From NCBI RefSeq assembly GCF_900100605.1, contig NZ_FNCN01000013.1, positions 1-64,000 on the forward strand: a stretch of DNA of 64,000 bases. The letters are read 5' to 3'. The position numbers were made by a program, and so were the translations under genes. Below are positions 21,208 to 62,242 of the stretch, piece by piece. The stretch comes from Sinosporangium album (GTDB taxonomy: Bacteria > Actinomycetota > Actinomycetes > Streptosporangiales > Streptosporangiaceae). The notes under the pieces were generated by a model. It was not told where the DNA came from and did no database searches. It was given only the letters and a program-made list of their open reading frames with translations. Position 1 is the first letter of the stretch. The number at the start of each line of letters is the position of its first letter.

Positions 21208-22797
21208 GTGAACAAGCCCGTTGTCCTGGTCGCAGAGGAGTTGTCCGAGGCCGGCTTGGCCGTGCTCGGAGCGGACTTCGAGGTCCGCCACACCGACGGA
21301 GCCGACCGCTCGAAGTTCCTCCCCGCCCTCGCAGAAGCCGACGCGCTGATCGTGCGCAGCGCCACCCAGGTCGACGCCGAGGCGCTGACCCACGCCCCGA
21401 GGCTCCGGGTCGTCGCCCGGGCCGGCGTCGGTCTGGACAACGTCGACGTCGAGGCCGCCACCAAGGCCGGCGTCATGGTCGTCAACGCGCCCACCTCCAA
21501 CATCACCAGCGCGGCCGAGCACACGGTCGCCCTCATCCTCGCCACCGCGCGCAACGTCGCGCAAGGCCACACGGCCCTCAAGGGCGGCGAGTGGAAGCGC
21601 TCCAAGTACACCGGCATCGAGCTCGACGAGAAGGTCATCGGCATCCTCGGCCTCGGCCGCATCGGGCAGCTCGTGGCCCAGCGCCTCCAGCCGTTCGGCG
21701 TCGAGCTGATCGCCTACGACCCCTACCTGCAGCCGGCCCGCGCCGCGCAGATGGGCGTGCGCCTCGTGTCGCTGGAGGAGGTCCTCCAGCAGGCCGACTT
21801 CATCACCGTGCACCTGCCGAAGTCCAAGGAGACCCTCGGTCTCATCGGCGACCGCGAGCTCCACACGGTCAAGCCGTCCGTCCGCATCGTCAACGTCGCC
21901 CGGGGCGGCATCGTCGACGAGAACGCGCTCTACTCCGCGCTCAAGGAGGGACGCGTGGCCGGGGCGGGCCTCGACGTGTTCTCCAAGGAGCCCTGCGTCG
22001 ACAGCCCGCTGTTCGAGCTGGACAACGTCGTCGTGACCCCGCACCTCGGCGCCTCCACCCACGAGGCGCAGGAGAAGGCCGGCACCCAGGTGGCGCGCAG
22101 CGTCAAGCTGGCCCTCGCAGGCGAGTTCGTGCCCGACGCGGTCAACGTGCAGGGCGGCGCGGTCGCCGAGGACGTCAAGCCGGGTCTGCCGCTCGCCGAG
22201 AAGCTCGGCCGGGTCTTCACCGCCCTCGCCGGCGAGGTGGCGGCCAAGCTCGACGTCGAGATCCGGGGCGAGATCGCCTCGCAGGACGTCCGGGTGCTGG
22301 AGCTCGCCGCGCTCAAGGGCGTCTTCACCGACGTGGTCGAGGACTCGGTGACCTACGTCAACGCCCCGCTGCTGGCCAAGGACCGCGGAGTCGAGGTGGA
22401 GCTCGTCACGAGCTCCGACAGCCCCGACTGGCGCAACCTCGTGACCGTGCGCGGCGTGCTGGCCGACGGCCGCACCGTCTCGGTGTCGGGCACGCTGTCC
22501 GGCCCGCGCCAGGTGCAGAAGATCGTCGAGGTCAACGGCTTCGCGATGGAGATCGAGCCGACCGAGCACCTCGCCTTCCTGTCCTACTCCGACAGGCCGG
22601 GCATCGTCGGCATCGTGGGCCGCATTCTCGGTGAGCACTCGATCAACATCGCCTCGATGCAGGTCTCCCGGGACGAGAAGGGCGGCAGGGCGCTCATCGG
22701 GCTCACCGTCGACACGGCCATCGCGCCCGAGATCGTCGCTCAGATCGCCGGTGAGATCGGCGCCGACAGCGGTCGCACGGTCGACCTCGCCGACTGA
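21208..22797 (+). CDS. serA: D-3-phosphoglycerate dehydrogenase
   Basis: 529 residues, the long actinobacterial form. First step of serine synthesis: 3-phosphoglycerate to 3-phosphohydroxypyruvate with NAD. NAD motif GILGLGRIGQLVAQRL (about 147); catalytic Arg in NVARGGIVDENAL, Glu in FSKEPCVDSP, His in TPHLGASTHEAQEKAG. An intervening ASB domain (about 315-450) and a C-terminal ACT domain (HLAFLSYSDRPGIVGIVGRIL) for serine feedback follow. GTG 21208 has GAAGGA 8 nt upstream. The 245 bp before it (20963-21207) hold no other gene. Confidence 0.97.
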   Translation: MNKPVVLVAEELSEAGLAVLGADFEVRHTDGADRSKFLPALAEADALIVRSATQVDAEALTHAPRLRVVARAGVGLDNVDVEAATKAGVMVVNAPTSNITSAAEHTVALILATARNVAQGHTALKGGEWKRSKYTGIELDEKVIGILGLGRIGQLVAQRLQPFGVELIAYDPYLQPARAAQMGVRLVSLEEVLQQADFITVHLPKSKETLGLIGDRELHTVKPSVRIVNVARGGIVDENALYSALKEGRVAGAGLDVFSKEPCVDSPLFELDNVVVTPHLGASTHEAQEKAGTQVARSVKLALAGEFVPDAVNVQGGAVAEDVKPGLPLAEKLGRVFTALAGEVAAKLDVEIRGEIASQDVRVLELAALKGVFTDVVEDSVTYVNAPLLAKDRGVEVELVTSSDSPDWRNLVTVRGVLADGRTVSVSGTLSGPRQVQKIVEVNGFAMEIEPTEHLAFLSYSDRPGIVGIVGRILGEHSINIASMQVSRDEKGGRALIGLTVDTAIAPEIVAQIAGEIGADSGRTVDLAD

Positions 22798-28512: not shown

Positions 28513-29106
28513 TTACTCCTGGAACACGTCGGTCTCCAGTGTGAGGTCGAACGGCTTTGGAAGCCTGAGAGCCTCTCCCAGGCGCACTTTGGTCTCATGG
28601 GTGTAGCCGACCGAGCTCGGATGGCTGAGTAGCCTCGCCTGGCCTTGACGCGGGTCGATGACCAGGTAGAGCGGCACGCCCGCCGCGCTGTAACGGGCCG
28701 GCTTGACGACATGGTCGTCGTTTTCGCTGCTTGGCGACACCACCTCGGTCACGAGCAGTGTGCAGTCCGCGTGGATGTGGTTGGAGTCCCACAGACGCGG
28801 CGGGTCGGGAATCACTATGAGGTCGGGCTGGTAGCGATCCATCTGCGTCGAGAGGAACAGGCTGGTCTCCATATAGAGCTTCCACGACCGCTCGGCCAGT
28901 ATGGGGACGAGCTGCATCATGAGGTAATACACGACATCGGAGTGCTTGATCGTGGGCAACTCCCTCACCACGATCCGGCCGTCGATGATCTCGACTCGGC
29001 GGTCTGACCACAGCTCGCAGGTTTTCTGGTAGCGCTCGTGGAGATCGTTGAGGTCCGCATGCATGTGTGCCGCCTCAGGTCGGTCCAACACCCTTGCCAT
29101 GAGCAC
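28513..29106 (-). CDS. Uma2 family (DUF820) restriction-endonuclease-fold protein
   Basis: 197 residues. The PD-(D/E)xK-like core is visible as VEIIDGRIVVREL, YQPDLIVIPDP (Asp), LLVTEVVSPSSENDDHVVKPARYS (Glu, then Lys) and GVPLYLVIDP. Uma2 proteins are abundant in actinomycetes and cyanobacteria; their role is unknown and may be linked to mobile DNA. ATG 29106 gives MLMARVLDRPE; a later ATG at 29062 (MHADLNDL) is an alternative start. Confidence 0.85.
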   Translation of the reverse strand: MLMARVLDRPEAAHMHADLNDLHERYQKTCELWSDRRVEIIDGRIVVRELPTIKHSDVVYYLMMQLVPILAERSWKLYMETSLFLSTQMDRYQPDLIVIPDPPRLWDSNHIHADCTLLVTEVVSPSSENDDHVVKPARYSAAGVPLYLVIDPRQGQARLLSHPSSVGYTHETKVRLGEALRLPKPFDLTLETDVFQE

Positions 29107-29202
29107 ATCATTCCCTCCGCTCGGCTTCGCTCACCGTGCTTTCGCCACGACAGAACGTAGCCGAACGGAGGCCGCCGCCGTCCCGGCTTTACGAACTTTT
29201 CG

Positions 29203-29865
29203 CTAGTGCTTTCGAATCAGGGTGAGGCCGTCGGCGATGGGGAGCATCACGCTGGTGACCCGGTCGTCGTGGAACACCATGTCGTTGAACTCGCGCATGA
29301 TCCGCGTGGTCTCCTCGCCATCGAGGGGATCGGCCACCCGTCCGCCCCAGAGGGTGTTGTCCACGAGGATGAGGCCGCCGGGGCTGAGGTGCGGCATGAC
29401 GAGGTCGTAGTAGGTCTGGTAGTTCGGCTTGTCGGCGTCGATGAAGACGAGGTCGACGTTGTGCTGCACGGGGAGATCGCGCAGTGATTCGGCGGCGGGG
29501 CCGATGCGCAGCTCGATGCGGTCGGACAGACCGGCCTTCTCCCAGTGGCGCTGGGCGATGGAGGTCCACTCCTCGCTGACGTCGAAGCAGGTGAGCCGGC
29601 CGCCGGGTCCGAGGCCGCGCGCCAGGCAGATGGCGGAGTAGCCGGTGAAGGTGCCGATCTCGATCACGTTCCTGGCATAGCTGAGCTGGGTGATCATCGT
29701 CAGGAACCGGCCCTCGTCAGGCGTGATCTGCATCACGGCCTGATCCCCGGCGGCCTCTCGGGTTTCGAGGATGAGGTTTTCGAGGACGTCGTCCGGCTGG
29801 GTGGTGTGGGCGTAGAGGTACCGTCCGACGGCAGGATCGAGGTAGGGCGCTTTCATGTCCGACAT
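29203..29865 (-). CDS. Class I SAM-dependent O-methyltransferase (CCoAOMT-like)
   Basis: 220 residues. The SAM-binding block is NVIEIGTFTGYSAICLARGL, followed by GRLTCFDVSEEWTSIAQRHW, VDLVFIDADKPNYQTYYDLV (metal-binding Asp) and LILVDNTLWGGRV. This is the cation-dependent small-molecule O-methyltransferase family. A minus-strand frame stays open far upstream to 31776 but that part is antisense to cimA; ATG 29865 (MSDMKAPYLDPAVGRYL) matches the family start. It is divergent from cimA. Confidence 0.9.
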   Translation of the reverse strand: MSDMKAPYLDPAVGRYLYAHTTQPDDVLENLILETREAAGDQAVMQITPDEGRFLTMITQLSYARNVIEIGTFTGYSAICLARGLGPGGRLTCFDVSEEWTSIAQRHWEKAGLSDRIELRIGPAAESLRDLPVQHNVDLVFIDADKPNYQTYYDLVMPHLSPGGLILVDNTLWGGRVADPLDGEETTRIMREFNDMVFHDDRVTSVMLPIADGLTLIRKH

Positions 29866-29967
29866 TGTGGTCCCGTCCTGCTCAGGGAGCCCGGCGACAC
29901 TTCGGAGTCTCGGATCCTGAGATCGATGTGCCAGATGCTGAGGAGCTGTGGCAGACTGCAAGGCACC

Positions 29968-30012
29968 ATGAACTACGGTCTGCTCATTATTGGCAGGCGC
30001 GTCGGCACGTAA
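29968..30012 (+). CDS. cimA leader peptide (attenuator)
   Basis: A 14-residue ORF, MNYGLLIIGRRVGT, TAA at 30010. The Leu-Leu-Ile-Ile run followed by a basic tail mirrors the ilvB leader in this window (GILVVL then RRR). AAGG lies 4 nt before the ATG. Its codons run into the first attenuator hairpin. Stalling on Leu/Ile codons would signal branched-chain amino acid shortage, apt for a gene that feeds isoleucine synthesis. Confidence 0.8.
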   Translation: MNYGLLIIGRRVGT

Positions 30013-30065
30013 CAGGACAACGCCGACGCGCAGACCTCTCACGTCCGTGAGGGGTCTTTTGTTTT
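29997..30065 (+). terminator. Transcription attenuator upstream of cimA
   Basis: Hairpin 1: GCGCGTCGGC (29997-30006) with GCCGACGCGC (30022-30031), perfect 10 bp, its left arm inside the leader codons. Hairpin 2: AGACCTCTCACG (30032-30043) with CGTGAGGGGTCT (30046-30057), 12 pairs with one G-U, then TTTGTTTTT: an intrinsic terminator. The arrangement parallels the ilvB attenuator. Confidence 0.82.
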
Positions 30066-30132
30066 TCGGGGAAGTCTCAACCCCCGGTGCGCGCGGCTCA
30101 CCAGCAAAGACCCGCGAAGGAGACCCGAAGAG

Positions 30133-31710
30133 ATGGCCGACGACAGATTCCACGTATACGACACCACTCTGCGTGACGGAGCACAGCAGGAGGGCCTCAA
30201 CCTCACGGTGGCCGACAAGCTCGCTGTAGCGCGGCTCATGGACAGTCTGGGCGTCGGCTTCATCGAAGGGGGCTGGCCGGGCGCCAACCCCAAGGACACA
30301 GAGTTCTTCCGGCGGGCTCAGACCGAGCTCGACCTGAAGCACGCGCAGCTCGCAGCGTTCGGCGCGACCCGCCGAGCGGGCGTGAAGGCAGCCGACGACC
30401 CGTTGGTGGCCGCCTTGCGCGAATCCGCCGCGCCGGTCGTGACCCTTGTCGCCAAGAGCCACGACCGGCACGTGGAGCTGGCCCTCCGCACGAGTCTCCA
30501 GGAGAACCTCGCGATGATCCGCGACACGGTTTCTCACCTTCGTGCGGAGGGACAGCGAGTCTTCCTCGACGCCGAGCACTTCTTCGACGGCTACAAGCGC
30601 AACCCAGATTACGCGCTTGAGGTCGTGCGCACGGCAGCGGAGGCCGGGGCCGACGTGGTCGTGCTGTGCGACACCAACGGCGGCATGCTCCCCGACGAAC
30701 TCGGCGAGATCGTCAGCGCCACCGCGGCCGTCGGCGCGCGGCTCGGCATCCACTGCCACGACGACACCGGCTGCGCCGTCGCGAACTCGATGGCGGCGGT
30801 GAAAGCGGGAGCCACCCACGTGCAGGGCTGCGCCAACAACTACGGCGAGCGCGCCGGTAACGCCAACCTTTTCACGGTCCTGGCGAACCTCCAGCTCAAG
30901 TGGGGTTACGACCTCGTGCCGCCGGCCGCCCTGGCCGACATGACCCGCATCGCCCACGCCATCAGCGAGATCACCAACGTCACCCCCAACTCCCACGCGC
31001 CCTACACCGGCGTCTCCGCCTTCGCGCACAAGGCCGGCCTCCACGCCTCCGCGATCAAGGTCGACCCCAACCTCTACCAGCACATCGACCCGGCACTGGT
31101 CGGCAACGACATGCGCATGCTGGTCTCCGACATGGCCGGCCGCGCCTCCGTCGAACTCAAAGGCCGCGAACTCGGCTACGAGCTGACCTCCGACCAGTCG
31201 CGCAACCTCGTCGAACACGTCAAGGGGCTGGAGGCCAAGGGCTACACCTTCGAAGCCGCCGACGCCTCCTTCGAGCTCCTGCTGCGCGACACCGTCAACG
31301 GCGAGCGCAAACGCCACTTCTCCGTGGAGTCCTGGCGCGTCATCGTCGAACGCCGCCCCGACGGCGAAGTGGTCGGCGAGGCCACCGTCAAACTCCACGC
31401 CAAGGGCGAGCGCATCATCGCCACCGGCGAAGGCAACGGCCCCGTCAATGCGCTCGACCGCGCCGTCCGCCACGCCCTGGAGACGATCTACCCGGAGCTC
31501 GCCGCGCTGGAGCTGATCGACTACAAGGTTCGCATCCTGGAAGGCACCCACGGCACCGAGGCCGTCACACGCGTCCTCATCACCTCCAGCGACGCCACCG
31601 GCGAATGGGCCACCGTCGGCGTCGACGAAAACATCATCGAAGCCTCCTGGCAAGCCCTTGAGCAGGCCGTCACTTACGGCCTCCTCCGCGCCGGCCACGA
31701 CCTCACCTAA
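30133..31710 (+). CDS. cimA: (R)-citramalate synthase
   Basis: 525 residues, HMGL/isopropylmalate-synthase-like. It condenses acetyl-CoA with pyruvate to citramalate, the threonine-independent entry to isoleucine. TIM-barrel motifs: VYDTTLRDGAQQEG, FIEGGWPGANPKD, VVLCDTNGGMLPDE and the metal-binding GIHCHDDTGCAVANS, then VQGCANNYGERAGNANL. The C-terminal LeuA-dimer regulatory domain (about 390-525) would bind isoleucine. Length and the start MADDRFHVYDTTLRDG fit the CimA subgroup rather than LeuA. GAAGGAGA precedes ATG 30133. Confidence 0.95.
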   Translation: MADDRFHVYDTTLRDGAQQEGLNLTVADKLAVARLMDSLGVGFIEGGWPGANPKDTEFFRRAQTELDLKHAQLAAFGATRRAGVKAADDPLVAALRESAAPVVTLVAKSHDRHVELALRTSLQENLAMIRDTVSHLRAEGQRVFLDAEHFFDGYKRNPDYALEVVRTAAEAGADVVVLCDTNGGMLPDELGEIVSATAAVGARLGIHCHDDTGCAVANSMAAVKAGATHVQGCANNYGERAGNANLFTVLANLQLKWGYDLVPPAALADMTRIAHAISEITNVTPNSHAPYTGVSAFAHKAGLHASAIKVDPNLYQHIDPALVGNDMRMLVSDMAGRASVELKGRELGYELTSDQSRNLVEHVKGLEAKGYTFEAADASFELLLRDTVNGERKRHFSVESWRVIVERRPDGEVVGEATVKLHAKGERIIATGEGNGPVNALDRAVRHALETIYPELAALELIDYKVRILEGTHGTEAVTRVLITSSDATGEWATVGVDENIIEASWQALEQAVTYGLLRAGHDLT

Positions 31711-31729
31711 CCTCTCCCCGGTCGGCCAT

Positions 31730-31765
31730 CTCTCGCGTTCCCAGGCCACACCGGGAACGCGAGAG
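31730..31765 (+). terminator. cimA terminator
   Basis: CTCTCGCGTTCCC (31730-31742) pairs perfectly with GGGAACGCGAGAG (31753-31765), 13 bp with a 10-nt loop. The duplicated CRISPR segment begins a few bases downstream. Confidence 0.8.
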
Positions 31766-31772
31766 GGCGGGA

Positions 31773-32233
31773 CCACTTCACCGGCCCACGCCGGACATGC
31801 CGTACGGCAAAAGCCAAGGACGATGCGCCTGGCAGGTAAGAGGTCGGCGGGGCGACGGTGGAAAGGGCTCTTCGAAAGGCCACTGGCGGTGCTCTAAGAG
31901 CAACGCGGCTATCCAGGGCATCACCAGCGCCGACCTGTTCGCACGCCCGGACAGCGTAGGGTGGAGGCGGTGGATTGCAGCAGACCTCCCGGGGAGAATG
32001 CACTACCGGAGGTTTACTGCAAGACACTGCCGGATCCCAGGGTCTACCTGGCTCGTGAGCTGGGCCTTTACCATGGGGTTCTCATCGCCCCTACGAGGGG
32101 ATTGCACCCCTCTGCCACGGCGGGCTGATTGTTCGATTGGGCCGGGCTAGTGGCCAGGCTGTCTGGGTGTTTGGCCCCTTTGGTGGGCCATATGCTTGGA
32201 TGTGGCCAGGTTGGTGGGTTGGCCTCCGGGGCT
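31773..32233 (+). repeat. Spacerless duplicate of the CRISPR locus (gene tail, leader and flank)
   Basis: This segment aligns by eye with 35295-36190. It starts with the same 3' gene tail (HFTGPR, then TCRTAKA, ending in TAA), continues through the leader (shared blocks such as GGACAGCGTAGGGTGGAGG and GGGGAGAATGCACTACCGG), one repeat unit at 32078, and the flank CTCTGCCACGGCGGGCTGATT. It contains no spacer. Substitutions are scattered, so the duplication is not recent. No gene is supported in 31773-32652. Confidence 0.85.
32078..32107 (+). CRISPR. Single degenerate CRISPR repeat
   Basis: The first 22 nt (GTTCTCATCGCCCCTACGAG plus GG) are identical to the eight-repeat array at 35612; the last eight read GATTGCAC instead of ATCGCAAC. 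It is the only repeat at this locus and lies directly between leader and downstream flank, as expected after loss of every spacer or before acquisition of any. Confidence 0.8.
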
Positions 32234-32533
32234 GTTGGCCTGTCCGGGAGTGCGAGGGAAGACACCGGATCAAGAGCCCCCTCGCCGCGCGCCGAAGGCG
32301 CGCAATTAAACACAGGGCGGCCAAGCTCTGGGACCCGGTGAAGCCGGGAGGCCGGTTGCCCGTGGGCCAGGCCGCCTTGGGAGACCGACTTTTCGGGATT
32401 TGTCCATCCGGCCCGAACCATCCCTCGCGGGACTTACCTGCGCGCGGCCGAGTCGGCGGCCTGGCCGTTCGGGTGTCCGGCCGTGTTGGCGGGCCAGCTG
32501 TTTGGGTGTTGGCCGGTCTGATGGGCCATGTGC
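32158..32533 (+). repeat. Degenerate direct repeat pair downstream of the CRISPR copy
   Basis: GCTGTCTGGGTGTTTGGCC near 32159 and GCTGTTTGGGTGTTGGCC near 32497 begin ~37-bp units that both run into a GGGCCA(T)(A/G)TGC ending. A third relative (GCTGTCTGGGTGCTGGCC) sits at 36151 behind the main array. The stretch between is non-coding, with low-complexity Gly/Trp/Val-like translations. Confidence 0.55.
32246..32315 (+). repeat. Structured intergenic element, copy A (internal deletion)
   Basis: Begins GGGAGTGCGAGGG, then jumps to the 3' half (CACCGGATCAAGAGCCCCCT) and the tail hairpin GCGCGCC-GAA-GGCGCGC (32287-32303), AATTAAACACAG. Compared with copies B-D it lacks about 70 nt between two GAGGG direct repeats, as expected from slippage or recombination at them. 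Confidence 0.75.
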
Positions 32534-32603
32534 GGGGAGACGGCCAGGCCAAGCTGTAAGTCAGCTCCCCTTCCAGCACATGCGATCAGGCAACCCAAGG
32601 CCA

Positions 32604-32634
32604 AAGGCTGACCCGTGAATCCCGGGTCAGCCTT
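32604..32634 (-). terminator. Terminator of the XRE/DUF5919 gene
   Basis: AAGGCTGACCCG (32604-32615) pairs with CGGGTCAGCCTT (32623-32634), 12 bp with a 7-nt loop, just beyond the stop of the minus-strand regulator gene. Confidence 0.75.
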
Positions 32635-32652
32635 CCCATGATCTACGTCACG

Positions 32653-33402
32653 TCATCCGTGAGCTGCAACGCTCCGGCCGCCACTCCACAACTCCGAAGC
32701 GTGGTAGGCAAAGCGGTCGAATAGGCCGTCATCCTGGCATCGTCGAAGGTGCAGCATGGGCGAGTCGTGTCCCACCAGCCGTGCTAAATGGGGCGTGACC
32801 AGCATCTCAGAGTCGAACCTGAACACGCTCATAGCGATGTGTTCGTCGCTGAACCTGGCTTCAACACCAGGCACATCATGCAACGCCTGGATCTCGGCGA
32901 GCGTAATCCTGATGCGTGTGGAAACCGTGAGAGGCACATCCTCCACTTCTTCACGACGGCGGGTTACGTCGCTATCTGGGTCGCCGACCAGAAATTGCAC
33001 CTTGCAACCTTGCTCGGCCTTCCGCCGAAGAACTGTTGCTAGCTTTGGATGTTCTAGCCACAAAAAGTAGTTGGTGTATCCGGCTAGTGTGATTTCCGCC
33101 TGAGCGCTCGTGATTAGCGATCTCCAGACCGATTTAGGGCACGCTGACCGGTATGGATAGACCGTTAAGACCTCGCGGTCCGCTCCTGTCTTAACGGAGT
33201 GACGGATCGTTTCCGGCCACAGCACGTCGGCATCAACTCCTAGGGCCTCCGCCGCAACCCACCGATGGCGGCGATGCGGGATGCGAGTTTCGTCCTGCAT
33301 CCAGCGTGCCACCGTCTTGACGTCCACCTCGCATTGGGTGGCAAGTTCGCGAACGTCGACCTTCGCGGCAAGCATGGCGCTGCGCAAGGCTCCGTTGGCC
33401 AT
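32653..33402 (-). CDS. XRE-type regulator with C-terminal DUF5919 / PLD-like domain
   Basis: 249 residues. The first ~65 form an HTH (LRSAMLAAKVDVRELATQCEVDVKTVARWMQ split over residues 6-36). Residues ~85-245 resemble the DUF5919 domain found after actinobacterial XRE HTHs (LTVYPYRSACPKSVWRSLI, LAGYTNYFLWLEHP, GCKVQFLVGDPDSD, HIAMSVFRFDSEMLVTPHLA), a phospholipase-D-like fold without the HKD catalytic motif. Probably a ligand-sensing repressor. It is divergent from a small-gene cluster with which such regulators are often associated. Confidence 0.8.
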   Translation of the reverse strand: MANGALRSAMLAAKVDVRELATQCEVDVKTVARWMQDETRIPHRRHRWVAAEALGVDADVLWPETIRHSVKTGADREVLTVYPYRSACPKSVWRSLITSAQAEITLAGYTNYFLWLEHPKLATVLRRKAEQGCKVQFLVGDPDSDVTRRREEVEDVPLTVSTRIRITLAEIQALHDVPGVEARFSDEHIAMSVFRFDSEMLVTPHLARLVGHDSPMLHLRRCQDDGLFDRFAYHASELWSGGRSVAAHG

Positions 33403-33520
33403 GGTCTGTCACCTCTGCGGGGTGGGGACGTTCGGGACGTTTCAAACTCTAATCAGGAAACGTCCCAGACGTCTCGGGAATGCGGTGTGATCGTCACCCT
33501 GGGTGCATAATCCTCGCTCC

Positions 33521-33736
33521 ATGTCCACACCAGAAATCCTCAGTGACTTGCAAGAGGCATTTCCCGGCTGGTGCATATGGCGCAGCACCGATCGCCGCTT
33601 ATAGGCCACCCGAAACGGTGAACGACTCACGCAAGAAGATTTCGCTTGTGGGCTCCGACAGGCCCTTGACGCCGATGATGTGAGGACATTGGCCGAGAAA
33701 CTTCGAAGCCAAGTCAACATCTCATCGGCAACTTAG
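33521..33736 (+). pseudogene. Small actinobacterial protein gene broken by an in-frame TAG
   Basis: The frame reads MSTPEILSDLQEAFPGWCIW, then RSTDRRL, stop, ATRNGERLTQEDFACGLRQA, LDADDVRTLAEKLRSQV, then a final TAG at 33734. Both sides of the internal TAG (33602-33604) fit one ~71-residue protein of a type common beside XRE regulators in actinomycetes, where an aromatic (often Trp) precedes ATR; TGG to TAG is the likely change. Readthrough cannot be excluded. Confidence 0.65.
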
Positions 33737-33805
33737 ATGCAGCGGGCTCGCCAGTGGATGCATCCCGACTGAGTGAACCCTTGACCGCACGTGGAGGTGC
33801 GATCC

Positions 33806-34132
33806 GTGATGAACCTTACGGTCCTAAGACCGGTGAGAGGCGTATGTGCCTCGAAGGCCCTGCGGCCGTACGCCGAGGCGCTGAGGTCTCGGCAGGCGGT
33901 GGTACATGAAGAGGGTCATCGGCTGTTGGTGCGGTCGGCCTGCGGGGTGGCGGCGACGGTGGGCGTCGTTGAGACCTCGGCATGGAACGGGCAGAAGCTG
34001 CACTTCCTCGTCCGCCAGACTCATCCGCTGCCTAAAGAGTGGGTCGTCCCGGTGGAGACCTTCGCCAAGCTCCTCACCAAGGACCCGCTGGCGCTTCCCG
34101 GCCTACTTCCTTACGGCAGGGAGTCGCTGTGA
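33806..34132 (+). CDS. Hypothetical protein, ~108 residues
   Basis: Begins VMNLTVLRPVRGVCASKALR; a strong GGAGGT lies 7 nt before GTG 33806 (ATG 33809 also possible). Mixed alpha/beta composition, no TM or signal, no recognised domain; the middle reads VVHEEGHRLLVRSACGVAA and the end PLALPGLLPYGRESL. Its stop overlaps the next gene (GTGA), so the two are coupled. Function unknown; part of the accessory cluster between the CRISPR copies. Confidence 0.65.
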   Translation: MMNLTVLRPVRGVCASKALRPYAEALRSRQAVVHEEGHRLLVRSACGVAATVGVVETSAWNGQKLHFLVRQTHPLPKEWVVPVETFAKLLTKDPLALPGLLPYGRESL

Positions 34133-34329
34133 TCACGCTTGATGAGGTTCGGCTTGTCGCCGATCTCGGTCTGAAGGCCGTTGCCCAGGGTGCAGACGGT
34201 CGGGTGCCGGTGCTGGTCGCAGTGGATGAGCTGGCGTATGTGCAGGCGGAGGGATCGGCGTACCGGGTCGCGTACCAGCACGCTCCGGCCGTCGAGACGG
34301 CGGACATCGACAACAAGTTCACCCACTGA
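34129..34329 (+). CDS. Hypothetical small protein, 66 residues
   Basis: GTG 34129 overlaps the upstream stop by 4 bp. Sequence MITLDEVRLVADLGLKAVAQ onward, with a basic/acidic mix and no TM. No recognised family. It is followed 17 bp later by the methyltransferase-like gene and is presumably in the same operon. Confidence 0.6.
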   Translation: MITLDEVRLVADLGLKAVAQGADGRVPVLVAVDELAYVQAEGSAYRVAYQHAPAVETADIDNKFTH

Positions 34330-34346
34330 CCGCGGAGCCGATTCTC

Positions 34347-35009
34347 ATGTCGATTCTTCAGCCACTCCCACGACCCCCTGCCGATACCCAAGGGTTGAGC
34401 GATGTGCATCGGGAGCAGGCCCAGGCCATCACCGAGATATGCCAACCTCCCGACCACGCCCTGATCGTCGGGGTCGGAGCTGGACACGGCACCCCCATGG
34501 CCTCTGTCATCGCCCTCAACCCCACCTGGCGCGGCATCCAGCTCGAACACGACCCCGACATCGTCGACACCTGGGCCGCCCTCCAGTCCTGCGGCCTGGC
34601 CGACCGCTGCGAGATCCGCCGCGCCCACGTCAACCGCCGCCCGCCCCAAGGAGCCCACCTCTACCTGCTCGCCGACGTCTCCCGCTCCGAGCACTGGACC
34701 CGCGACCACCTCATCGACCTGCTCGACCCCATCGGCGAGGCCATGCCCCCCGGAGGATGGCTCGCCATCGTCGACACCATGCCCCCGGACCCGCCGCCCG
34801 ACGACGCCTCCTGCTCCTGCGGCGAGAACGACCCCTGCGAAGACCGCTGCCCCAAGTTCGCCCACCCCCGCCGGCCCCTGCCCGGCACCAAGTGGAGCCT
34901 GGCCGACTACCTCCACATGCTCCACCCCATGCACCTGGAACTCCACCTGGTCAAACCGCTCTCGCACGCCTTCACCCTGCTCGCCCTCCGCAAATCCCGC
35001 CACCCCTGA
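34347..35009 (+). CDS. SAM-dependent methyltransferase-like protein
   Basis: 220 residues. A Rossmann-type SAM motif (ALIVGVGAGHGTPMASVIAL, then GIQLEHDPDIVDTWAAL) and later strands (HLYLLADVSRSEHW, GGWLAIVDTMPPD) fit a class I methyltransferase. An unusual Cys-rich loop, CSCGENDPCEDRC, lies near residue 160 and could bind metal. Codon use is extremely C-rich at position 3, unlike the neighbouring regulator gene. Substrate unknown. Confidence 0.6.
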   Translation: MSILQPLPRPPADTQGLSDVHREQAQAITEICQPPDHALIVGVGAGHGTPMASVIALNPTWRGIQLEHDPDIVDTWAALQSCGLADRCEIRRAHVNRRPPQGAHLYLLADVSRSEHWTRDHLIDLLDPIGEAMPPGGWLAIVDTMPPDPPPDDASCSCGENDPCEDRCPKFAHPRRPLPGTKWSLADYLHMLHPMHLELHLVKPLSHAFTLLALRKSRHP

Positions 35010-35033
35010 CCGTTGCCCGGAAGGCGACCCCGC

Positions 35034-35361
35034 ATGGACCCCCTGGCCCAGCCGCTCTTCTGGCTGCTCTACACCCTCGCCGGCGCGGCCACCAGCGCCC
35101 GCATGCTCACCGTCCTCCGCCGCCAGGCCGCCCGCGACCCCGCCACCGCCTGCGACACCTGCCGCAAGCGCACCCTCACCCCGCCCCGTCCTGGCCGCAG
35201 GCCAGGCCACCCCCCAAGCCTCCCTCGGCGCCGTGGCCGCCCTCCTCCTCATCGGCGCCCTCTGGTCCGCCTACTGGCCCCTCCTCCTATGGCGCCACTT
35301 CACCGGCCCACGCTGCACCTGCCGTACGGCAAAAGCCACGGAACGTTCGCCTGACAGGTAA
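35034..35361 (+). pseudogene. Frameshifted small membrane protein gene
   Basis: The start frame (MDPLAQPLFWLLYTLAGAAT, one TM, then CDTCRKRTL) becomes Pro/Arg-rich after ~35190. The +1 frame from there reads VLAAGQATPQASLGAVAALL, LIGALWSAYWPLLLWRHFTG and ends TCRTAKA...TAA at 35361: a second TM and a basic tail. An indel in the C-rich tract 35180-35195 best explains this. The tail is also present at 31773, so the gene predates the CRISPR-locus duplication. Confidence 0.6.
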
Positions 35362-35611
35362 GGGATCGGCACGCCGGGCTTGCGGCATACGGCCGAAAGG
35401 GTTCTTCGAAAGGCCGCAGATGCTTCTCTTAGAGCGACGTGGCTATCCAAGGCGTCGCCGGCGCCGACCAGTTCGCACCCCCGGACAGCGTAGGGTGGAG
35501 GCGGTGGATTGCAGCAGACCTCCCGGGGAGAATGCACTACCGGAGGTTCACTGCAAAACACCGCCGGATCCCAGGGTCCACCTGGCTTATGAGCTGGGCC
35601 TTTACCATGGG
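35362..35611 (+). promoter_or_regulatory. CRISPR leader
   Basis: 250 bp between the gene tail and the first repeat, moderately AT-richer than its surroundings and conserved with 31838-32077; the last ~90 bp (AATGCACTACCGGAGGTT through GGGCCTTTACCATGG) are nearly identical in both copies, as expected for leader sequence that directs adaptation. Confidence 0.75.
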
Positions 35612-36102
35612 GTTCTCATCGCCCCTACGAGGGATCGCAACCCCTCGGGTCGGGGACATACCGCGCGGGAAGCGTCTCCCGTTCTCATCGCCCCTACGAG
35701 GGATCGCAACCACGCAGATCGCATTGTGCGGGCGCTCGTTGCCGACGTTCTCATCGCCCCTACGAGGGATCGCAACGCTCATCGTGGTCCGTGCGTGTGC
35801 TTCCCGCGCATGTTCTCATCGCCCCTACGAGGGATCGCAACCGGGAATGGGAGACGATGCCCGCCTCACGGCACAGGTTCTCATCGCCCCTACGAGGGAT
35901 CGCAACTCATTCCGTTCGTGCTGGGCTGGCTCACACGCAAGGGGTTCTCATCGCCCCTACGAGGGATCGCAACGCAGAGTGCCATCAGTCTGTCATCTCG
36001 GCGTCGCGTTCTCATTGCCCCTACGAGGGATCGCAACTCGACGCGGCCGAGTTCGGCGTATTCCGCGTGCTGGTTCTCATCGCCCCTACGAGGGATCGCA
36101 CG
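35612..36102 (+). CRISPR. CRISPR array, 8 repeats and 7 spacers
   Basis: Repeats of 30 nt (GTTCTCATCGCCCCTACGAG then GGATCGCAAC) start at 35612, 35681, 35747, 35812, 35877, 35944, 36008 and 36073. Spacers are 39, 36, 35, 35, 37, 34 and 35 nt, all different. Repeat 7 has one C-to-T change and repeat 8 loses the last two bases, placing the old end on the right and the leader on the left; transcription is therefore plus-strand and the 5' crRNA tag would be ATCGCAAC. A short CCCT-ACG-AGGG hairpin lies in the repeat. No cas gene is in the window, so type is undetermined. Confidence 0.97.
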
Positions 36103-36233
36103 CCTCTGCCACGGCGGGCTGATTGTTTGGTCGGCCGAGTTGCTGGGCTGGCTGTCTGGGTGCTGGCCGCTTTGGTGCGGCGGGCCGAGGTGTCGGGAGT
36201 CGGCCCTGTCCCCGTTCAGGAGTCGGTTGGCTT

Positions 36234-36398
36234 GGGAGTGCGAGGGGGCGCCGGTGCTTGGACTGAGGAGCGTCGGGAGCGTAGCGACCAGAGCGACGAG
36301 GGAAAGCACCGGGTTAAGAGCCCCCTCGCCGCGCGCCGAAGGCGCGCAATAAACACAGCCCCCTCGCCGCGACGCGAAGCGTCGCCATCAAACACAGC
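36234..36398 (+). repeat. Structured intergenic element, copy B (full length, two tail hairpins)
   Basis: Outer stem GCGAGGGGGC (36240-36249) with GCCCCCTCGC (36320-36329); inner stem CCGGTGCTT (36251-36259) with AAGCACCGG (36304-36312); a ~44-nt apical region with CGTCG/CGACG. Two tail hairpins follow: GCGCGCC-GAA-GGCGCGC (36331-36347) and GCGACGC-GAA-GCGTCGC (36369-36385), each followed by A/C-rich AAACACAG. Situated directly behind the CRISPR flank. Confidence 0.85.
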
Positions 36399-36416
36399 TC
36401 CCGCCATACACGCCTG

Positions 36417-38099
36417 TCAGGACAGGTTTGCCCCCGAGGCGCGGAAGCTCGCGCTGCCGTTCGCCGTGTTGACCGTGACGCGGTTGCCCGAGCAGGTGAC
36501 CGATGGGGTGTCGGTGCCGGGGACGACGACGGTGAGCAGGGCCGGGGCGGCGGGGGAGACGACGGCGGCGGCGGGGACCCGCTGCATGTAGGTGGGGGAG
36601 ACCCAGCCCTGGTAGGGCTTGGTCTGGCCGCGGGCGATGGTCTGTCCGCCGATGGGCTTGCATGTCGGCATGGCGAGCTGCACGAGGCTGGTGGCGAAGT
36701 CCTTGTCCTTGAGCACGATCTGGCCGCCCTTGTTGGAGGTGACCTTCAGGGAGGCATCGAAGTGCCACAGGTTGCGGATTTTGGCCCCGGAGGCGGCGGT
36801 GTCGAGGACGGCCATGAGGTCTTCGTCGTGGTTGACGAGGACGGAGCGTGTACGGCTGACGCCGTACGCTTTGTCGGTGAGCCGGTAGGTCTGCCTGTCG
36901 CGGCCGGTGTCGGCTTTGACGAGGGCTGTCGGGGTCGAGGGGCGTAGGTTGCGGCCGACGACGGTGGGCACGTTGTGGGCTTCGGGGGACATGGTCCACC
37001 ACCGGTAGGGCGTGTTCTCGTAGGAGTGGAATCCGGTGTCGACGAGGATGTCGCGGCCTTGCGCGTAGTAGGTGACGCCCATGTGGTCTTCGTGGCCGTG
37101 GTGTTTTCTGCCGGGGCCGAACCGGAGGGAGTAGAACGCCGACTCGGGTTTGCCCCAGTTCGTACGGCCGTAGGCGTAGCCGGCGGAGCGGAAGAGCTTC
37201 ACGCGCTCCTTCGGTTCGGCGAAGCCGATGGGGCGCACGTCGGGGGCTCCGTCGCCGATCGGGACCATGAAGCCGTTGGGCTGGGTGGAGTGGGCGATGT
37301 AGCTTTCGAGCGCTTTCCAGCGGGTGAGGATGCGGTCCGGCACGGTGCGTCCGCAGTCTTTCATGTTCGTGATGGCGACGTTGAGCCGCTGGTAGACGTA
37401 GAGGCCGTAGCGCGGGGCTTGTTCTCTCAGCGCGCCTTGGGGGTCCACGTCGAGTTCGACGGTTTCGATGAGCCGCCGGGTCGCGAGGTTCGACCACGTG
37501 TCGCGCTTGTAGCGGCATCCGATGCCGAGCAGGGCGATGTCCTGGTCGATGCCGTGGTTGTGCCCCTTCTCATAGAGCTTGGGGTCGGACAGCATGACGG
37601 CGTGTTCGGCGAGGCTGCCGCGCAGCCAGGCGTCTCCCACGTGCTTGCTGAGGCATACGAGGGCGGGCGCGCGAAGCGCGATCGGGTGCTCGGCCCATGC
37701 TTGGGCGCTGATGCCGGCGCGGCCTCTCGGGTTGTCCTTCACCCAGTCTTTGGCGACTTCGACGGCTCTGGTCAGGTAGCGCTTTTCGCCTGTCACCTCG
37801 TAGTCCGCGACGAGGCGGCCCATCCAGCGCAGCGAGTGGAAGACCATCTCCCAGGAGCGGTTCTTGTACGGGCTCCAGCGCCAGTCGACGTTTTTGCCGA
37901 CTTTGGCCGCGGGCAGTCCGACGAACGACAGTTCGCCCTTCATCACGTCGGCGGAGGTGGGGGTCGACGGAAGCCAGTCACCTTGGCACTCGGCGGTGCG
38001 CTTGCCGGTGGCGTTCGCCGCCTGCGAGGTGGTGAAGGTGCCGGCGCAGGCCAGCGACAGGGCAAGGGTGAGTCCGAGAGCACGTGTGCGGCGACGCAC
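36417..38099 (-). CDS. Secreted heparinase II/III-family polysaccharide lyase-like protein
   Basis: 560 residues. GTG 38099 has GGAAGGA 7 nt upstream and opens a classical signal peptide (RRRTRALGLTLALSLACAGT, AxA site SQAANA). An alpha/alpha-toroid region (about 60-280, HSLRWMGRLVADYEVTGEKR, NHGIDQDIALLGIGCRYKRD) precedes the heparinase II/III beta-domain with GRKHHGHEDHMGVTYYAQGR, DILVDTGFHSY and SPEAHNVPTVVGRN. It should cleave an acidic polysaccharide outside the cell; the substrate cannot be assigned. Confidence 0.88.
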   Translation of the reverse strand: MRRRTRALGLTLALSLACAGTFTTSQAANATGKRTAECQGDWLPSTPTSADVMKGELSFVGLPAAKVGKNVDWRWSPYKNRSWEMVFHSLRWMGRLVADYEVTGEKRYLTRAVEVAKDWVKDNPRGRAGISAQAWAEHPIALRAPALVCLSKHVGDAWLRGSLAEHAVMLSDPKLYEKGHNHGIDQDIALLGIGCRYKRDTWSNLATRRLIETVELDVDPQGALREQAPRYGLYVYQRLNVAITNMKDCGRTVPDRILTRWKALESYIAHSTQPNGFMVPIGDGAPDVRPIGFAEPKERVKLFRSAGYAYGRTNWGKPESAFYSLRFGPGRKHHGHEDHMGVTYYAQGRDILVDTGFHSYENTPYRWWTMSPEAHNVPTVVGRNLRPSTPTALVKADTGRDRQTYRLTDKAYGVSRTRSVLVNHDEDLMAVLDTAASGAKIRNLWHFDASLKVTSNKGGQIVLKDKDFATSLVQLAMPTCKPIGGQTIARGQTKPYQGWVSPTYMQRVPAAAVVSPAAPALLTVVVPGTDTPSVTCSGNRVTVNTANGSASFRASGANLS

Positions 38100-38243
38100 G
38101 GGTGGTTCCTTCCGAGTAGAGCAGGATTGCCGGATGAAGCGGCGGATCATGCTCTCGAAGTCACACTAAAACGGTCAAGTCGCTTGAGTAACTGGAGTCA
38201 CTCGTTACGTGTTGCGACGCCCCAAATCACGCCCAACCGCCCT

Positions 38244-38273
38244 CGCCGCCCCCATGCGTGTGGCGGGGCGGCG
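38244..38273 (-). terminator. Terminator downstream of the monooxygenase-domain gene
   Basis: CGCCGCCCC (38244-38252) pairs with GGGGCGGCG (38265-38273), just past the stop of the minus-strand gene and before the heparinase-gene promoter region (38100-38243). Confidence 0.6.
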
Positions 38274-38283
38274 GGGGCGAACG

Positions 38284-38706
38284 TCACGCCTGCTTGGGGC
38301 CCACGCTCTCCACGACCTCGAACGACCAGAGCTCTGAAGCCGTCGCCGCCGGGCCGCCGTGTCCGTGGCCGTGTCCCTGTCCCTGTCCCCCCTGGGCCTG
38401 CCCGTGGCCATGGCCCGCCGTCAACGGAGCCGACTCGGTGTCGCCGCCCTTGGTGGCGTGCTCGGCGGCGGCCTGGGCGTGCCCGGCCTGGAACGCTCTG
38501 CTGCTCTGCCAGCGCTGGAAGTCCTCTTCGCTGCGCCAGCGGGTGTAGACCAGGTATCGGTCGGTGCCCTCCACTGGACGGAGCAGCTCGAACCACTCGA
38601 ACCCATCCGAGGACTCGACCATCCCGGCGCGTCCCGCGAATCTGCGCTCAAGCTCTTCGCGCATCTCCGGACCCACCGTCAGCACGTTGATCTTCACGAC
38701 AGCCAT
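38284..38706 (-). CDS. Antibiotic biosynthesis monooxygenase (ABM/IsdG-like) protein with His/Gly-rich insert
   Basis: 140 residues. The ABM ferredoxin-like fold is seen in VVKINVLTVGPEMREELERR, DGFEWFELLRPVEGTDRYLV, YTRWRSEEDFQRWQSSRAFQ and the final strand LWSFEVVESV. Residues ~98-125 are an insert made almost only of Gly, His and Gln (HGHGQAQGGQGQGHGHGHGG), which suggests metal binding. Heme degradation is known for some relatives but is only a possibility here. It follows the envelope-stress operon by ~26 bp and may be its last gene. Confidence 0.82.
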   Translation of the reverse strand: MAVVKINVLTVGPEMREELERRFAGRAGMVESSDGFEWFELLRPVEGTDRYLVYTRWRSEEDFQRWQSSRAFQAGHAQAAAEHATKGGDTESAPLTAGHGHGQAQGGQGQGHGHGHGGPAATASELWSFEVVESVGPKQA

Positions 38707-38732
38707 GCGCTGGATTCTGTCACAAGGACACC

Positions 38733-39320
38733 TCAGGTCACGGTACGGCGTGGCGGGGACCGCCGGGCGAGTGTGACCCGGGTGACGGCGGGGAGGTGGT
38801 CGGTGGTCAGAGCCTGACGCGCGTGGGAGAAGGCCACGTCGCCCAGATGCGCGCGAAGCTCGCCGATTCGTGTGTGCTCGTCGGCGACGAGGCGGAGCCG
38901 TACTCCGGGGTGGGCGCTCGGGCCCACCAGGCGGACGTGTGCGCTGACAACGTCGGGGTTGGACTGGATGTCCTTGGCGACGGCGTCGGCGATCGCGCCG
39001 GGGTCGGCCCTGGTGACGCCTCCGGGGCCCGCCGCCAGCTTGAGCACGCCCAGCGACTCGCTCCGCCCCTGGACGAACAGCCACCGCAGCCCCAGCAGGG
39101 CGATCACGATGGCGGCGAGGGCGACCAGCCACCACAGCCACGCCCCCTGGGAGCCGAACAGCTGCCGCACCGGCCCGCCGGCCAGCGGCTCCCCGGCGGG
39201 GGCGATGCTCTGCGGCAGCAGCCTGAAGCCTCGGAGCAGCGTGAACAGCCCGAGCGCCGTGAGCGCGAGGCCCGTCAGCAGCAGACCGAGCCGGTTGCCC
39301 CGGGCGGTCTTTCTGTCCAT
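38733..39320 (-). CDS. amaP: Alkaline-shock membrane anchor protein AmaP-like
   Basis: 195 residues with two TM helices (about 10-27, LGLLLTGLALTALGLFTL; about 61-85, WLWWLVALAAIVIALLGLRWLF) and a cytoplasmic C-terminal domain (DAVAKDIQSNPDVVSAHVRL, VADEHTRIGELRAHL). AmaP anchors Asp23 at the membrane in Firmicutes; gene order and topology give the assignment here. It lies 4 bp after the DUF6286 gene in the same operon. Confidence 0.82.
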   Translation of the reverse strand: MDRKTARGNRLGLLLTGLALTALGLFTLLRGFRLLPQSIAPAGEPLAGGPVRQLFGSQGAWLWWLVALAAIVIALLGLRWLFVQGRSESLGVLKLAAGPGGVTRADPGAIADAVAKDIQSNPDVVSAHVRLVGPSAHPGVRLRLVADEHTRIGELRAHLGDVAFSHARQALTTDHLPAVTRVTLARRSPPRRTVT

Positions 39321-61755: not shown

Positions 61756-61852
61756 CCCCCCTCACCCCTCCCTCCCAGGTCGACTGTCCTGGCAGGCCGA
61801 CGTGTCGGGAGCCGCCCGTGTTGCCCTGTCCCGTTCGGGAGTTGGTTGGCCT

Positions 61853-61978
61853 GGGAGTGCGAGGGGGCGCCGGTGCTTGGACTGAGGAGCGTCGGGAGCG
61901 AAGCGACCAGAGCGACGAGGGAAAGCACCGGGTTAAGAGCCCCCTCGCCGCGCGCCGAAGGCGCGCAATAAACACTGC
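61853..61978 (+). repeat. Structured intergenic element, copy C
   Basis: Same outer and inner stems as copy B and one tail hairpin, GCGCGCC-GAA-GGCGCGC (61950-61966), then AATAAACACTGC. It differs from B in the apical loop (GCGAAGCG versus GCGTAGCG). Located between the PLP-fold gene and ddlA, only 93 bp before copy D. Confidence 0.85.
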
Positions 61979-62070
61979 TTCTACAACTTAAGGGAGTCGG
62001 CTGTAGAGGCAGGCCGACGTCCCGGGAGTCGGACGCCCCGGAGTGCTGACGTTCGGGAGTCGCCCGGCCT

Positions 62071-62242
62071 GGGAGTGCGAGGGGGCGCCGGTGCTTGGAC
62101 TGAGGAGCGTCGGGAGCGCAGCGACCAGAGCGACGAGGGAAAGCACCGGATCAAGAGCCCCCTCGCCGCGACGCGAAGCGTCGCAATCAGAGCCGGGTCA
62201 AGAGCCCCCTCGCCGCGACGCGAAGCGTCGCAATAGACACAG
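62071..62242 (+). repeat. Structured intergenic element, copy D (two tail hairpins)
   Basis: Outer and inner stems as in copies B and C, followed by two tail units, both of the second stem class GCGACGC-GAA-GCGTCGC (62168-62184 and 62215-62231). The second tail unit repeats the preceding GTCAAGAGCCCCCTCGCCGC segment. Ends 37 bp before ddlA, so it would be in or just upstream of the ddlA promoter region. Confidence 0.85.

Follow-up and report, generated by a model that had tools for sequence, protein, structure and literature searches.

How does a CRISPR (clustered regularly interspaced short palindromic repeats) leader come to stand in front of one repeat and no spacer, a few kilobases from a filled array of the same family? 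The question is raised by a 64,000-nt stretch of Sinosporangium album DNA (C26:1–64000, ‘the window’, from a 7.06-Mb draft genome of 97 contigs), where sequence comparison reveals a duplicated segment, both copies lying on the forward strand: a right copy at 35295–36360, which carries an array, and a left copy at 31773–32316, in which the remnant of a gene tail is followed by a leader, one repeat, the flank downstream of it and part of a dispersed repeat. Our answer, which we consider probable, is that an orphan array was duplicated and that its left copy then collapsed to a single repeat.

Two copies of a leader, one of them without spacers

When the left copy is compared with positions 33000–38000 by BLASTN, the gene tail, leader and repeat align at 86.2% identity over 354 columns (expectation value, E, 2.9e-105), and the terminal repeat and downstream flank at 85.0% over 113 columns (E 5.4e-28); values that exclude chance as the origin of the likeness, and bear out the proposal, made in a preliminary description of this DNA, that the array was duplicated along with its leader and flank. 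Homology does not fall apart outside the 30-nt repeat unit, but persists on both sides of the point where the left copy lacks its repeat–spacer units. The order of parts is the same in each copy: the last codons of a small gene, a diverged stretch, a 133-nt leader core, the repeat or repeats, the flank and the dispersed-repeat piece. From start to start the two leaders are 3534 nt apart, matching an earlier estimate of about 3.5 kb. The preliminary description raised competition between them for new spacers, or recombination across the genes in between; the sequence offers support for neither. As the copies are ~14% diverged from each other, they are unlikely to be an assembly artefact.

The left copy had previously been placed at 31773–32233; its start stands, but at the other end homology reaches ~32316, the last part being the dispersed-repeat piece. 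Because 32253–32315 belongs to that repeat, the copy-specific downstream evidence is the pair of flanks at 32109–32185 and 36103–36178, each of which, by genome search, is common only to the other copy (83% identity for the left flank); the 76 nt found 3′ of the last repeat of the right array occur at two genome sites only, the left and the right copy (E ≤ 0.001).

The left repeat spans 32078–32108, its end falling at 32107 or 32108. Repeat comparison finds its positions 1–22 equal to those of the commonest repeat of the right array; behind them a G has been inserted and two bases are substituted, so that it is not identical to that array's internal repeats. No second repeat-like element is present at spacer distance from it (best 14/30, a score of at least 14 being reached by shuffled flanks in 61% of trials), confirming the description of a copy with one repeat and no spacer. 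By the measure of at least two repeats with a spacer, the left copy is not a CRISPR array, and because it contains no spacer it gives, as it stands, no spacer-bearing CRISPR RNA (crRNA). What it does resemble is a collapsed array: its single repeat lies directly 3′ of a conserved leader, is followed by the flank of the terminal repeat, and has the 3′ end of that repeat, GCAC, in which one base is informative. The right terminal repeat also ends GCAC; the other seven right repeats end GCAAC.

In the right array (35612–36102) seven spacers of 34–39 nt separate eight repeats of 30 nt, of which the last is degenerate at the 3′ end. Its regular repeats, unique spacers and degenerate last repeat would place it in type I-B, as would a leader and repeat family found again in the arrays that this genome carries next to a I-B cas locus. 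Searched against 50,697 phage records, the whole array hit two records only at E ≤ 1, both through the same 27-nt match (E 0.5), and an exact scan of IMG/VR with the first 21–22 nt of spacers 1–7, which covered neither plasmids nor the organism's own genome, found no match for six of the seven. For spacer 7 two IMG/VR contigs did match, but with 23 and 25 of 35 bases in agreement we set this protospacer aside as chance. An Rfam scan of 29000–39000 gave a single match (E 0.18), below the gathering score.

A cognate cas locus, which the preliminary description had suggested looking for elsewhere in the genome, is present on contig C6. Here three more arrays of the family are matched by the window repeat and leader; their leaders lie at 1416, 22773 and 26084, and their repeats end AAC (GTCGCAAC at C6:1540 and C6:22904, GTCACAAC at C6:26213). 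The same contig has model matches to Cas6b, Cas8b, Cas7b, Cas5b, Cas3b (C-terminal part only), Cas4b, Cas1b and Cas2b. A genome-wide search for Cas1 returned matches on C87, C6 and, for part of the model only, C59, and none on C26, the window's contig, which is why we call both window arrays orphans; judged from sequence, both sites are orphans of a I-B repeat family with its cas locus on C6. A III-D-like cas set with Cas10 and a CARF-HEPN protein adjoins the I-B locus (L026:3739–14243). The Cas1 match on C87 (678–1544) is a second and stronger one, on a contig with no junctions of the window family; C87 therefore perhaps carries another CRISPR-Cas system. Directly 3′ of the last repeat of the last C6 array, a sequence resembling by eye the 3′ half of a transfer RNA (L027:6640–6705) was rejected as such, ARAGORN calling no gene there.

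We picture the history of the locus as follows. A segment containing the end of the small gene, the leader, the array and the downstream flank would have been duplicated beside a cimA/leuA-like gene; the homology is observed, and the order of events is our reconstruction. The left copy would then have lost all its spacers, most simply through recombination between first and last repeats, leaving a repeat of terminal type. Cas1, Cas2 and Cas4 supplied from another contig may still insert spacers here in trans: acquisition at the left site is plausible, given that the leader core and repeat positions 1–22 are little changed. For integration in Haloarcula hispanica, whose system is also I-B, bases 1–3 of the first repeat and positions 11–15 and 18–22 are reported to matter (PMC9458426); at the positions that correspond by analogy, the left repeat has undergone no change. 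Were the site refilled, the crRNAs made from it might be poor, as the 3′ handle of the left repeat has drifted.

Leaders and comparable sites in the family

Alignment defines leader cores at 31945–32077 (left) and 35479–35611 (right), identical at 126 of 133 positions; the left core also matches the C6 leaders at 22773 (88%), 26084 (87%) and 1416 (76%). Counting the BLASTN alignment with gap columns left out, the two copies differ at 7/133 positions in the core, 31/172 upstream of it and 24/92 in the flank, so that core identity exceeds that of both the upstream sequence (141/172; Fisher p 0.0008) and the flank (68/92; p 1.7e-5). Across 132 arrays with at least three repeats, 35 leader columns are kept in at least 80%; these arrays retain a mean of 32.9 such columns (5th percentile, 30), the left leader 31, the right leader 33 and a degraded leader on C6 26.

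Within a block conserved across the family's leaders, ~55–100 nt before the first repeat, an alignment of 156 leaders locates an imperfect inverted repeat (31975–32022 on the left, where it reads TTGCAG...CTGCAA; 35509–35556 on the right), a candidate binding site for the adaptation machinery. As a paired structure it was not established from covariation in these leaders: among its 17 pairs, those formed in more than 90% of leaders hardly vary, the middle pairs form in about half, and one pair varies on both sides (T-A in 68 leaders, G-C in 60).

The leader–repeat junction pattern occurs in 51 of 341 genomes of the family, a reversed control pattern in none; in the set of named genomes, to which the window's own genome possibly does not belong, the exact pattern was found in one record, Actinomadura logoneensis. 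For a census we took 111 fetched pieces, each extending ~2 kb downstream of its site, together with the window and two pieces of C6, giving 157 junctions (the sites of G323, G325, G326, G328 and G330 being only partly included, with none of G325's five). Eleven were dropped, eight because they run off the piece and three because they contain N, leaving 146 complete sites. At a repeat threshold of 18/30, set from shuffles, nine of these 146 have one repeat; an earlier, stricter walk had given 16/157. Inspection by eye set three of the nine aside: L131 abuts an inverted array, L203 has a visible degraded second repeat and L204 a poor leader (15/35 columns).

The remaining six are the window site, the degraded C6 site, L172, L173, L186 (ambiguous, with a further match of 17/30) and L191. 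On C6 the degraded leader and degenerate single repeat lie directly 3′ of cas2 (C6:22480–22640; L027:2480–2640), ~0.3 kb ahead of an intact leader and array. L172 lies 3.4 kb, and L173 1.8 kb, away from an array that is filled and whose leader is 85–87% identical. L191 is the single site in its piece; the 115 nt 3′ of its lone repeat match, at 91–92%, regions behind filled arrays in L182 and L174, from two other genomes, where the matching regions start 21–29 nt after the last recognised repeat.

Wear of the terminal repeat is general in the family. Over the 112 arrays that have four repeats or more, the terminal repeat shows 0.346 mismatches per site to the consensus of its own array at positions 23–30 and 0.140 at positions 1–22, as compared with 0.024–0.025 in the 981 internal repeats; matching here was ungapped, an indel counting as several mismatches.

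Duplicated leaders and emptied copies recur in the family, which makes the arrangement less unusual than it had first seemed: relatives, including the one other genome of the genus compared, have duplicated leaders at distances of 0.8–3.4 kb, and in some of these sets one member has a single repeat. In the other genome of the genus there are three arrays ~3 kb apart, with leader homology of 84–86% over 481–493 columns. Three arrays with duplicated leaders ~3 kb apart are seen in L136 (relative G210, contig C9), the first repeat of one of them being rearranged; at L131:8816–9530 (relative G144) a leader and one repeat are followed at once by an array of ten inverted repeats in the opposite direction, as though an inversion had turned a portion of an array around. 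A search of plasmids with the left leader, repeat and flank matched one record, Streptomyces sp. NBC_01766 plasmid NZ_CP109119.1, over 36 nt at the leader–repeat junction (85020–85055; 94%, E 2e-5), on the strength of which the array family may reach Streptomyces plasmids.

Weighing the explanations

The preliminary description had offered a choice between a collapsed array and a naive adaptation site. Had the left leader and its single repeat been without spacers from the start, and the right copy alone been filled after the duplication, this would account for a leader core and repeat positions 1–22 that are little changed; solitary leader-adjacent repeats are reported to take up spacers in the laboratory (PMC8047081), and L172 and L186 show that lone repeats with intact 3′ ends occur in relatives. 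Such a history nevertheless predicts that an ancestor ending GCAC would have passed GCAC to its copies, yet seven of the right repeats have the longer ending, as AAC also closes the repeats of the three C6 arrays; we accordingly take AAC as the older form. A repeat ending GCAC would hand that ending on to its copies, so the left site most probably once possessed two repeats, a first and a terminal one, and with terminal repeats worn family-wide and one informative base in its favour, collapse is the choice we prefer, a site that was naive from the outset being unlikely.

Collapse after duplication has its own difficulties. What marks the left repeat as one of terminal type is a single base shared at position 29, which parallel mutation could also have produced; it is this that holds our confidence where it is. 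How strongly leader core and flank contrast varies with the alignment used, the flank reaching 83% instead of 74% when aligned locally, the borders of the segments compared were drawn after the homologies were known, and gene conversion could explain the high identity of the core. Amongst the relatives, the lone repeats of L172 and L186 keep intact 3′ ends, and the sequence downstream of those in L172 and L173 is unlike the flank of the neighbouring array, so these three sites may have arisen otherwise. A filled left array was found in no strain, and the one other genome of the genus compared is without the block.

A further possibility overlaps with duplication and collapse and departs from it only on present function: that the left copy has ceased to function and, as a decaying relic, is heading for the condition of the degraded leader and degenerate repeat at C6:22480–22640. 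We put this somewhat short of an even chance. It suits the threefold alteration of the left repeat near its 3′ end, as it does the decayed example in the same genome with its 26 conserved columns, and of the seven leader-core differences six could be polarised by eye against the C6 leaders, four falling in the left leader and two in the right; four against two is, however, no significant excess, and the core is less diverged than what adjoins it on both sides.

It is highly improbable, to our mind, that the lone repeat and the sequence after it form a CreA-like regulatory RNA, resembling a crRNA and guiding Cascade to a cellular promoter. CreTA modules do use one or two degenerate, ectopic repeats outside arrays, with the repeat and guide closed in most cases by a second degenerate repeat (PMC9458426). 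At the left site the repeat is preceded by a conserved CRISPR leader, no closing repeat was found at spacer distance (best 14/30), and what follows is the downstream flank of the right array. The missing second repeat does not in itself remove the site from the class, as single-repeat forms exist (PMC9458426); the three island genes tested match no PADLOC model, in an analysis that included no search for a toxin or target site.

A broader and rather doubtful idea is that leader-plus-one-repeat sites in this actinobacterial family are kept as spare acquisition pads, new arrays being seeded from emptied duplicates; selection would then hold the inverted-repeat block and repeat positions 1–22, leaving the crRNA handle free to drift. 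The window site and L191 fit this, but L172 does not, its lone repeat differing from that of its neighbour within positions 1–22 and keeping its handle.

Surroundings and known systems

At 31773–31839 the translations identify a remnant of the last ~22 codons of the small gene, with the frame and TAA stop of the right copy (35295–35361). The body of the gene precedes the right copy only, and we therefore take the left copy as the derived one. The protein has two distant relatives elsewhere in this genome and none in 119 other genomes searched; ahead of the right array the gene (35034–35361) appears to change frame, and so may be broken. The flanking genes are cimA/leuA-like and heparinase-like. 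In the other genome of the genus they lie ~1.1 kb apart with different content between them, pointing to an insertion or replacement of the block 31712–36440 in one lineage; none of that genome's seven junction matches is on the contig with the flanking genes. Just 3′ of the cimA/leuA-like gene a hairpin can be seen by eye (CTCTCGCGTTCCC / GGGAACGCGAGAG, 31730–31765), and the left copy begins 8 nt behind it.

Genome search places the dispersed repeat at 32253–32315 (a piece, in the left copy) and 36203–36356 (beside the right array). The repeat is ~150 bp long and ends in a GC-rich hairpin, with further copies in the window at 61823–61975 and 62050–62187, the fuller copies compared being 91–97% identical. 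There are at least 30 further matches in this genome; it is absent among the eight matches listed for the other genome of the genus. That the dispersed repeat, which borders both copies, served recombination is speculation on our part.

Single-repeat loci in Escherichia and Salmonella belong to I-E and I-F systems. A survey of these genera admits such loci and describes the terminal repeat as almost always degenerate at its 3′ end (PMC2886076), features that the window site has in common with them; there, however, the loci occupy fixed chromosomal regions, whereas here the lone repeat adjoins a filled duplicate. Loss of an array by recombination between its first and last repeats has been described, as has the uptake of spacers by a lone leader-adjacent repeat (reviewed in PMC8047081). 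The closest parallel is the type I-F system of Legionella pneumophila, where an array was reduced to its last repeat and then refilled, a last-repeat signature is described, and the collapse model leaves a lone repeat of the last type (PMC7056967). In both cases a leader is followed by a single terminal-type repeat, the proposed cause is that the first repeat recombined with the last, and the cell has further arrays of the same family; ours differs in being a type I-B orphan array of an actinobacterium, 3.5 kb from a filled duplicate, occurring naturally and with no refilling seen.

The window site is thus a probable natural member of the published kind of array collapse, in a I-B orphan array, and seems to be a clear instance, met in nature, of a process already known and not a new system; a clean but ordinary case. 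Its value lies in offering a natural snapshot of type I-B array collapse, with the filled duplicate as an internal control, and in relatives where duplicated leaders turn over in the same way. It provides a defined test case for the refilling in trans of an array that has been emptied and whose crRNA handle has drifted, and, with the comparable sites, a set in which to measure how often arrays empty.

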